Source: Cyanobium sp. CH-040 (GTDB taxonomy: Bacteria > Cyanobacteriota > Cyanobacteriia > PCC-6307 > Cyanobiaceae). From it: a stretch of 64,000 nt of DNA. Made by a program: the position numbers and the translations under genes. Positions 6,591-62,553 of this stretch are shown in pieces. The DNA lies in contig NZ_JAGQCJ010000002.1 of the NCBI RefSeq assembly GCF_024346135.1, positions 1 to 64,000 of the forward strand. Direction: 5' to 3'. Every line of letters starts with the position of its first letter. Within the stretch, counting starts at the first letter, position 1. Under the pieces are notes generated by a model that saw only the letters and a list, made by a program, of their open reading frames with translations, had not been told where the DNA came from and did not search any database.

Positions 6591-8186
6591 TCAGCCCAGG
6601 GCGGTGAACCGTCCCAGCGCCACGGCCACGGTGCCGGCGAGCTGGCTGGAGAGGGCGTTGGTGCTGGCGGAATAGAAGTCGATCGCCACCCGCGGCCAGA
6701 AGCCGATCACCAGGGTGGGCACCAGCAGGGTGAGGCCGATCACCAGCTCCCGGGGGGTCATGTCGCCCACCACGGCGAGGGCCGGGATGCGGGGCCCGAA
6801 GAACACGCGGCGGCAGAGGCTCAGCAGGTAGACCGGCGTGAGCACCAGGCCGATGGCGGCCAGCACGATCGTGATCACCCGGAAGCCGGTGGTGAAGTCG
6901 TCGTTGGCGGTCACCCCCAGGAACACCGTGATCTCGCTGACGAAGCCGCTCATGCCGGGCAGAGCGAGCGAAGCCAGGCAGCTGGCCAGGAAGAAGGCGA
7001 AGGTGATCGGCAGCGCCTTGGCCAGACCACCCATGTTGGGGATCGAGAGGGTCTCGGTGCGCTCGTAGAACACGCCGGTGACGAAGAACATCGCCGCGGC
7101 GATCAGGCCGTGGCTGATCATCTGCAGCATGGCCCCGCTCATGCCCAGGGCATCGATGGCACCGATGCCCACCAGCACGAAGCCCATGTGGCTCACCGAG
7201 CTGCAGGCGATGCGCCGCTTGACGTTGTCCTGGGCGAAGGCGTTGAGGGCGCCGTAGATGATGTTGACGATGCCCAGCACGATCAGGGCCGGGGCCAGCA
7301 CCAGATGGGCCTCGGGCAGCATCTGTACGTTGAAGCGCATCAGGGCGTAGCCGCCCATCTTCAGCAGCACCCCGGCCAGCAGCATCGACACCGGCGCGTT
7401 GGCCTCGCCGTGGGCGTCGGGCAGCCAGGTGTGCAGGGGGAACATCGGCAGCTTGACGCCGAAGCCCACCAGGAAGCCCAGATAGCAGAGCAGGCCGAAG
7501 GTGCCCCCGGGGCTGCGGGCCGCCAGCTCGGAGAGGTTGAAGCTGAAGGGGCCGTTGAAGGCCAGGGCGAGGCCGCTCACCAGGATCAGCAGCGAGGCGG
7601 TGGCGGTGTAGAGGATGAACTTGGTGGCGGCGTACTGGCGCTGCTTGCCGCCCCAGATGGCGATCAGCAGATACACCGGCACCAGCTCCAGTTCCCAGGC
7701 CAGGAAGAACAGCAGGAAGTCCTGGGACAGGAACACCAGCCCCTGGGCCGAGGCCTGCACCAGCATCAGGGCGTAGTAGAGGCGGGTCTTGCGGTTCACC
7801 TTCCAGCTGGCCGCCACCGAGAGCAGGGTGACCAGGCCGGAGAGCACCACCAGCGGCGCCGAGAGGCCATCGGCGGCGAGGGACCACTCCAGGCCCAGCA
7901 CGGGCACCCAGCTCACCCGCTCCACCAGCTGCAGACCGCTGAGGCTGCCGTCGAAGTGACGGCTGAAGCACACCAGCATCAGCAGCAGATCCACCGCCAG
8001 GGCCCCCAGGGCAAGGGAGCGGGGCAGGCGGGGATCGCTGCCGTCGCCGGGCAGCAGGGGCATCAGCAGCGCCACCGCCGCAGGCAGCAGCACGATCAGG
8101 CTGAGCCAGGGGAACGCTCCCGTGGCCGCTGCCGTGTCCGTCAGCAGAGGGGTGGACGCAGCCAAGAGGGGCAGGTTGGCGTCCAT
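6591..8186 (-). CDS. ndhD: NAD(P)H-quinone oxidoreductase chain 4 (NdhD)
   Basis: NdhD is one of the antiporter-like membrane subunits of the thylakoid NDH-1 complex used in cyclic electron flow and respiration. The 531-residue protein is almost entirely hydrophobic helices with NuoM/NdhD motifs: [40 protein letters not shown] (with the functional Glu of the ELELVP segment), [28 protein letters not shown] and [10 protein letters not shown]. It ends within 52 bases of the M3 peptidase start. Upstream lies thrB with a perfect palindrome at 8234-8253 in the 62-base gap. AAGGG lies immediately against the ATG, an unusually close spacing for a ribosome site. It is an isolated ndhD with no ndhF beside it. 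Confidence 0.95.
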
Positions 8187-8233
8187 CCCTTACGCGCCGA
8201 AAGCGTGTTGACGCTAACAGTTGCCCCGCAGGC

Positions 8234-8253
8234 GCTGAGTAGATCTACTCAGC
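8234..8253. promoter_or_regulatory. 20-bp perfect palindrome between thrB and ndhD
   Basis: The arm gctgagtaga is followed directly by its exact reverse complement. The palindrome contains the thrB stop codon (8249-8251) and lies 48 bases upstream of the ndhD start. No T-run follows on the minus strand, so it does not look like an ordinary terminator. A dimeric repressor site for ndhD, or an RNA hairpin at the thrB 3' end, are the candidates. Confidence 0.6.
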
Positions 8254-9199
8254 ACAGATCCGGCAACGGCAGCCAGTGGCTGCCGCTCTGCTGCACCCCC
8301 AGCACCTCGCCGCGGGCCTCCACACCGGCCCGGTGCCAGGCCACCAGCATCTCCCGACGCACCGCATCGGCCACCTCGCCCCGGCACAGCGCCAGCAGGC
8401 TCGGCCCGGCGCCGCTGATCACGCAGCCCCAGGCGCCGGCCTGCAGGGCCGCCTCGCGCACCTTCTGGCCGCCGGGGATCAGTCCCCAGCGGTAGGGCTC
8501 GTGGAGGCGGTCGTGCATGCCGTCGGTGATCAGGTCGCCGTTGCCGGTGCGCAGCCCCTGCAGCAGCAGCGTGAGGGCGCCGAGGTTGATCACCGCGTCG
8601 GCCACCGGAATCGCCTTGGGCATGGCCCGCCTGGCTTCGCTGGTGGTGAGCCGGATCGCTGGAATCGCCACCACCGCCACCACCTCGGGTGACCACTCGC
8701 AGCGCACCACCCGCCAGCGGTGGGAAGCCGCCCTGGCAGTCATGCACAGGCCTCCCACCAGCGAGGGCACGACGTTGTCCGGATGGCCCTCGATGTCGAT
8801 GGCCAGCTCCAGCAGCTTCTCCTTGCTCAGGGGCTCACCCACCAGGGCATTGGCGCCCATCAGCCCGGCCACGATCGCCGTGGCGCTGCTGCCCAGGCCC
8901 CGGGCCGGCGGCACCGCGAGGCGCACACGGGCCTCCAGCCCCACCGGCTCCTCGCCGGCCTCCTTCCACACCCGCTGCGCCGAGCGGTACATGAGGTTGT
9001 CGGGACCACCGCGCAGATGGGCCCCCTCCCGCCCCTCGATGATCAGGTCGAAGCGCTGGCTGTCTCCCTCCATGCAGCGCAGCTCGAACACGTTGTCGAG
9101 ATCCAGCGCGGCGCCGAGGCAGTCGAATCCCGGCCCGAGGTTGGCCGTGGTGGCCGGAACGTGGACGATGACCCCTTGGCCGACCCGGGGGCGCACCAT
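8249..9199 (-). CDS. thrB: Homoserine kinase
   Basis: ThrB phosphorylates homoserine to O-phosphohomoserine for threonine (and methionine) synthesis. The 316-residue product is a GHMP kinase: N-terminal VHVPATTANLGPGFDCLGAA, the ATP-binding PPARGLGSSATA at residues 97-108, the substrate region EGHPDNVVPSLVGG, and the C-terminal GCVISGAGPSLLAL. Length is typical. It sits between glk (upstream, 40 bases) and ndhD. No thrC or hom gene is in the window. The start ATG 9199 gives only a short lead before the conserved strand. Confidence 0.96.
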   Translation of the reverse strand: MVRPRVGQGVIVHVPATTANLGPGFDCLGAALDLDNVFELRCMEGDSQRFDLIIEGREGAHLRGGPDNLMYRSAQRVWKEAGEEPVGLEARVRLAVPPARGLGSSATAIVAGLMGANALVGEPLSKEKLLELAIDIEGHPDNVVPSLVGGLCMTARAASHRWRVVRCEWSPEVVAVVAIPAIRLTTSEARRAMPKAIPVADAVINLGALTLLLQGLRTGNGDLITDGMHDRLHEPYRWGLIPGGQKVREAALQAGAWGCVISGAGPSLLALCRGEVADAVRREMLVAWHRAGVEARGEVLGVQQSGSHWLPLPDLC

Positions 9200-61893: not shown

Positions 61894-62553
61894 TCAGGCC
61901 GCCTGGCGCGACAGCCAGCGCAGGCACTCGCGGATCCAGTCCTCCGCGCTCCAGTCCGCCGCCCCCTCCCCGAGCGTCTGCTGGCGGGCCGCGGCCCGCA
62001 GGGCCCGGTGAACCTCGAGCACCTCGTAGCCCAGTGCCTCCAGGGTGTGCTGCACGTCGTCGCGGTGGTCGTCGCCGGGCTGGGCGTCCGTCAACGCCGC
62101 GAGATCGTCGGGGTCGGGATCCAGACCGCCGAGGAAGCGCTGCTGCAGCCGGCCGCGCAGTTCCACGGCCAGCCGTTCCGCCGTGCGCCGCCCCACCCCG
62201 GGCGCCTGGCAGAGCCGGCGCAGGTCGGCCTGCACGATCGCCTGCACCAGGGCGTCGGGCTCCAGGCAACCCAACAGCCCCAGGGCCATCTGCGGTCCCA
62301 CGCCGCTCACCGCCACCAGCTCCCGGAACAGCTCCCGTTCCTGGCGGACGCCGAAGCCGTAGAGGGTCCAGCCGTCCTCCCGCACCGTCTGGTGAATGTG
62401 CAGGCTGAGGCGGGTGCCCACTGGCGGCAGCTGCCGCCAGTGGCGCTGGCTCACCTGCACCTCGTAGCCCACCCCCTGACACACCAGCAGCAGGCCGCAG
62501 CGTTTGTCCTGTTGCCAGGGATCGGCGAGTTCGCCCTGCAACCAGCCGATCAT
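61894..62553 (-). CDS. ruvA: Holliday junction DNA helicase subunit RuvA
   Basis: RuvA binds Holliday junctions and loads RuvB for branch migration. The 219-residue product has an N-terminal OB domain ([22 protein letters not shown]), tandem helix-hairpin-helix elements ([17 protein letters not shown] and [23 protein letters not shown]), an acidic linker, and the C-terminal RuvB-binding domain ([17 protein letters not shown]). ATG 62553 is clear. The divergent lipoprotein gene starts 22 bases away. Confidence 0.95.

Follow-up and report, generated by a model that had tools for sequence, protein, structure and literature searches.

Sequence comparison supports the view that a perfect 20-bp palindrome, GCTGAGTAGATCTACTCAGC, in Cyanobium sp. 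CH-040 is a conserved control site, a putative operator, that precedes ndhD2 in picocyanobacteria. On balance, we favour the reading that this site is an operator for PedR through which ndhD2 would be repressed under redox control. The palindrome was found in a 64,000-nucleotide stretch of DNA, referred to here as the window, and Table 1 lists the features around it.

Table 1. Features at the thrB-ndhD junction of the window.
Feature	Position	Strand	Basis or remark
ndhD, NAD(P)H-quinone oxidoreductase subunit 4, NdhD2-type	6591..8186	-	outside the NdhD1 clade in the tree
Inferred extended -10 box TGTTAGCGT (TGnTAnnnT)	8211..8219	-	16 bp after the 16-bp operator core
Putative operator (perfect palindrome of 20 bp, TGAGTA half-sites)	8234..8253	.	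sequence, conservation
thrB, homoserine kinase	8249..9199	-	stop at 8249-8251, within the palindrome

Position of the palindrome and expectation by chance

The two halves of the palindrome meet without a spacer. It is separated from ndhD by 47 bases, and its dyad centre (8243/8244) is at approximately -40 relative to the inferred ndhD transcription start. Its position, its perfect symmetry and the thrB stop codon inside it were as the initial annotation had described. The annotation had also remarked on the missing T-run of a terminator, in agreement with the absence of terminator-like matches from 8000-8500; the same interval held no match to the sigma-70 consensus. Its argument that such a palindrome is unlikely by chance in 64 kb did not stand. 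At the 72% GC of the window, 0.34 perfect palindromes of at least 20 bp are expected, shuffled sequences contained 0.40 on average, and 20/60 shuffles contained at least one. The length of the palindrome alone is therefore unremarkable; what goes beyond chance is the conservation of the sequence at the same promoter. A longer perfect palindrome of 26 bp, CCACTGGCGGCAGCTGCCGCCAGTGG, is present at 62418-62443 of the window, within an open frame similar to RuvA on visual inspection.

A search for further copies, as the annotation had suggested, returned none, the 20-bp sequence being single-copy in the assembly at up to three mismatches. The exact pattern TGAGTA-N4-TACTCA likewise occurs in the Cyanobium sp. 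CH-040 genome only in the window. A large regulon in this genome was rejected: at up to three mismatches the pattern matched 143 times and its reversed control 188 times, so there is no excess. No evident target gene accompanied the near matches at C1:54168, C1:116213 and C12:191093.

Conservation of the site upstream of ndhD

The annotation had named absence from close relatives as grounds for abandoning its proposal. Relatives were collected in two ways. A 351-base junction query that included the palindrome matched 20 of 40 relatives and gave 16 family loci, 15 of which could be scored; the scoring thus covers family genomes with a DNA match to this query, 9 of 24 family relatives falling outside it. 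Homology to thrB gave 80 loci, including 18 from the family, of which 16 could be scored. Among these 34 family loci, three had no ndhD in the locus. The 300 bases upstream of ndhD contained a TRRGTA-N4-TACYYA site at 10 or more of 12 positions in 31/31 scored loci, each with a shuffle P of 0.015 or less, and in 30/31 the score was 11 or 12. The 31 loci correspond to about 29 genomes, since L016 and L022 come from a single genome and L010 and L085 probably from a single contig, and nine of the scored sites are near-identical Prochlorococcus sites.

Of 400 family genomes, 30 contained the exact 18-mer CTGAGTA-N4-TACTCAG and none contained its reversed control. Genomes with the exact form are thus a minority, most of the family carrying variants or lying outside the loci inspected. 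Twenty-eight of the 30 were located at ndhD. The two others (L072 and L073) are inside a long open frame common to two g45 genomes and are probably chance matches. In one genome (G010), a 321-aa ORF separates thrB from the site, which is still at ndhD. This indicates that the element stays with ndhD and not with thrB.

The site precedes NdhD2-type genes

The same genome encodes a second close ndhD (C1:514002), with an NdhF-like match as its neighbour. A tree of 35 sequences placed this second copy in the NdhD1 clade (14 rows, support 100/100), a member of which, from G464, matches the solved NdhD1 structure 6hum_D at 1076 bits. The window ndhD fell outside this clade, grouped with genes of G034, G439 and G033 at 87/78 support. 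By its place in the tree, the window gene is of the NdhD2 type and not NdhD1, where NdhD2-type denotes any sequence that does not fall in the NdhD1 clade, a set that does not itself form one clade. We take Synechocystis ndhD2 to belong to the same NdhD2-type group.

Outside the family, 9/11 NdhD2-type upstreams scored 11 or 12 compared to 1/14 NdhD1 upstreams (Fisher P 0.0002), a count from which four NdhD3/D4-like loci were left out. Ten of the 11 NdhD2-type upstreams reached P of 0.05 or less. One NdhD2-type upstream (L279) carries two dyads of 11/12 in tandem, 18 bp apart, with the right half TNCTYA; this variant right half was also seen in L277, L280, L281, L301 and L302.

Arrangement of the site within the inferred ndhD promoter

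A set of 55 family sites, 25 of which had been picked by the motif itself, gave the consensus CTGAGTA-NWWN-TACTCAG, the two central positions each being A or T in 55/55. An extended -10 box, TGnTAnnnT, follows at 16-18 bp in 35/55 of these sites (16 bp in 27, 17 bp in 7 and 18 bp in 1). Shorter distances of 11 bp and 2 bp were found in nine sites each, and in 2/55 there was no such box within 60 bases. By these distances, the site overlaps either the -35 region or the spacer between -35 and -10 in the inferred ndhD promoter. Between lineages, the distance from operator to -10 box appears to have moved (16-18, 11 or 2 bp) while the operator sequence was kept. Together, the conservation, the link to ndhD and the recurring distance to an extended -10 box support the annotation's suggestion that ndhD is controlled through an operator of its own, apart from thrB; the annotation had put forward no regulator.

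Sites at other genes

A relaxed form of the pattern was searched in 13 genomes of the genus and gave 17 sites, ten at ndhD and seven elsewhere. Three of these seven are just before chlL (in G006, G008 and G010), and the other four are at neither gene. The reversed control gave 25 sites in the 13 genomes, 18 of them in G002. With 25 control sites against 17, it is the placement of the sites and not their number that is informative. Upstream of chlL, a site at shuffle P of 0.05 or less was present in 14/25 family loci and a score of 11 or more in 11/25, with one locus (L240) dropped because its contig starts inside chlL. Non-family chlL upstreams had a site in 0/25. For the chlL of Cyanobium sp. 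CH-040 itself, the best site scored only 10/12 (P 0.017). As regards the protein, family ChlL sequences (L218-L240) are 83-100% identical to the G010 query and those of most other cyanobacteria examined (L252-L272) 52-56%. Four non-family genomes (G432, G446, G453 and G459) carry a ChlL of the 83-85% type, which suggests transfer of the chlL gene.

In the three Prochlorococcus-type genomes G044, G174 and G252, all 14 TAAGTA-N4-TACTTA sites were inspected. Three are at ndhD (3/3 genomes), two at ndhI, between ndhA and ndhI, two before an AOX-family gene (PF01786; 2/3 genomes), two at a DoxX gene and two at an ORF of 136/137 aa that follows an infB-like gene, the one copy of this ORF that was scanned having no Pfam match; the remaining three have no close gene start. 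The dyad is 16-21 bases before the AOX-family (plastoquinol oxidase-like) gene in L304 and L308, and in two genomes (L306 and L315) the dyad TAAGTATAAATACTTA is 77-78 bases before the DoxX-family gene. A single-gene regulon was dropped as a reading because of these sites at ndhI, AOX-family and DoxX genes. G044, G174 and G252 belong to a set of 16 genomes with such sites, 13 of which contain the ndhD form TAAGTAGTTTTACTTA. At ndhI, four of five Prochlorococcus-type genomes have a site scoring 11 or 12 of 12 and the fifth has one scoring 10 (for example, 11/12 in G044, 12/12 in G078 and 10/12 in G098). The ndhI site was absent from Cyanobium sp. CH-040 and from six other genomes not of the Prochlorococcus type, where scores were 7-8.

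PedR as the candidate regulator

In the available portions of two reports on Synechocystis (PMC13421787, PMC3264485), the LuxR-type redox regulator PedR is described as acting on both ndhD2 and chlL and as a repressor of ndhD2. As far as the accessible text goes, chlL, chlN and chlB are said to be activated by PedR, which is also reported to repress its own operon. PedR is a small LuxR/GerE-type regulator of about 97 residues. It is encoded in the Cyanobium sp. CH-040 genome (G000:C1, 510 kb), where it matches NCBIfam NF052366 (136.2 bits; cut-off 120). Thirteen orthologues, retrieved from 15 genomes searched with G105 and G116 outside the set, are identical at 50/66 positions, including the recognition-helix region, ISKRTVDNHVSN and NCC. 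The pedR gene (G000:C1:510005) is approximately 4 kb from the second ndhD (G000:C1:514002) and its NdhF-like neighbour.

PedR is named as the binder mainly because the site coincides with its reported targets ndhD2 and chlL, being located at NdhD2-type promoters and at the family chlL upstreams counted above. Several observations count against PedR. The chlL link ends at the family border and is weak in Cyanobium sp. CH-040; ndhI has no site in this genome or in the six others scored that are not of the Prochlorococcus type; and the genome encodes seven GerE domains. The pedR upstreams of 13 genomes have no site of 10/12 or more (best score 9/12), which argues against PedR given the reported autorepression. 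Hik33 is also said to control Synechocystis ndhD2 in what is available of PMC6789579. PedR is described from one model strain, with a loose motif, according to the text at hand. By eye, the printed motif RWWTRGGYNNYY fits the window half-site in part, its core TRGGY matching TGAGT at 4/5 positions and its flanks not matching. As a strict match to RWWTRGGYNNYY is lacking, we do not class the palindrome as a proven PedR operator. The palindrome sequence itself does not appear in the available parts of PMC13421787, PMC3264485, PMC6789579, PMC7880944, PMC9025218, PMC8136909, PMC11979508, PMC2633013, PMC3091678 and PMC11221513. Nor is it reported in the titles and abstract openings among the matches listed, a scope that excludes subscription papers and preprints.

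In the proposed mechanism, the operator would cover the -35 region of the NdhD2-type ndhD promoter, and a PedR dimer would bind its two TRRGTA half-sites. In low light, oxidised PedR would bind the operator and repress ndhD2, as reported for Synechocystis. In strong light, thioredoxin would become reduced and PedR would release the operator, allowing expression of ndhD2. We infer PedR as the binder, the repression and the light/redox logic, the repression from the Synechocystis reports and the shifting operator position. More tentatively, one dyad read by PedR might couple several picocyanobacterial electron-transport genes to the redox state of thioredoxin. These would comprise ndhD2, across the whole family and also in other cyanobacteria, chlL in many of them, and, in Prochlorococcus-type genomes, ndhI (in the ndhA-I-G cluster) together with the AOX-family plastoquinol oxidase; the distance to the -10 box would have moved. 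The analysis thus offers an exact candidate operator, at NdhD2-type and not NdhD1 promoters, for many marine and freshwater phototrophs that together form a large group; through it, the NDH-1 complex would be coupled to a thioredoxin state driven by light.

Alternative readings of the site

A genuine ndhD2 operator could be read by a dimeric regulator other than PedR, either another GerE/NarL protein or one of the CRP/FNR or GntR type, and we consider this rather unlikely. The 6-4-6 geometry of the dyad also suits CRP-family and GntR-type proteins. The seven GerE domains of Cyanobium sp. CH-040 leave room for such a regulator, as do the two in each of the Prochlorococcus-type genomes G044, G174 and G252, one besides PedR in each. 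Against it, ndhD2 and chlL are the pair of targets reported for PedR, as far as the sources are available, and the printed Rre1 (GTNCGGK), RpaB HLR1, LexA and CRP motifs do not fit.

More unlikely still is that PedR acts as a class II activator of ndhD2 from about -40. The dyad centre is at about -40 in the 27/55 sites with a 16-bp spacer, and activation by PedR is described for chlL, chlN and chlB in the same partial texts, but these have ndhD2 repressed by PedR in Synechocystis. The variable -10 distance (2 bp in 9/55 sites and 11 bp in 9/55) is also easier to reconcile with occlusion than with activation through contact.

An RNA hairpin at the end of thrB, as a terminator or 3'-end element, is very improbable. 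The window RNA folds well (z -4.34), as does that of L087 (z -3.18), but those of L004 (z 0.08) and L091 (z -1.42) fold no better or little better than shuffles and the pairing in L009 is gapped. A-C mismatches occur at half-site positions 2 and 3 in 3/55 and 7/55 sites, respectively, there is no T-run, and the element follows ndhD and not thrB. A chance palindrome, although 0.34-0.40 are expected in the window and 20/60 shuffles contain one, is a negligible prospect, given that the site is conserved at this promoter both within the family and outside it.

Comparison with known regulatory systems

The NtcA box is GTA-N8-TAC upstream of TAN3T. The palindrome is similar in its GTA...TAC dyad and in the TAnnnT box downstream, but as GTA-N4-TAC it has a gap of 4 instead of 8, and NtcA was rejected. 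LuxR/TraR-type boxes are 18-20 bp dyads near -40, with GTA...TAC inner half-sites, that lie over the -35 region. The palindrome resembles these in its 18-bp dyad, its inner half-sites and its -35 placement; it differs in the outer bases, and no acyl-homoserine-lactone receptor is implied here. The cyanobacterial LexA box AGTACWNWTGTACT, with the targets recA, lexA and ssb in the available part of PMC3091678, has AGTAC-like letters in common with the palindrome but differs by eye in half-site spacing, and its targets do not include ndhD2. By eye, the CRP box TGTGA-N6-TCACA does not fit, and the Rre1 GTNCGGK and RpaB KTTACAWW-N2-KTTACAWW sites are absent from the palindrome. An intrinsic terminator, a stem followed by a T-run, was rejected on the search of 8000-8500 described above.

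The closest comparison for repression of ndhD2 by PedR is the PedR (Ssl0564) regulon of Synechocystis sp. PCC 6803. It differs in that RWWTRGGYNNYY fits only partly, that pedR has no site here, and that the printed target list, as far as it is available, lacks ndhI and the AOX-family gene, both of which have sites in Prochlorococcus-type genomes. It is alike in its targets ndhD2 and chlL, in the presence and conservation of the regulator, and in the dyad expected for a dimeric LuxR-type protein. Overall, the site is most likely an operator of a known kind, a dyad bound by a dimeric regulator, through which PedR would exert redox-controlled repression of the NdhD2-type gene.
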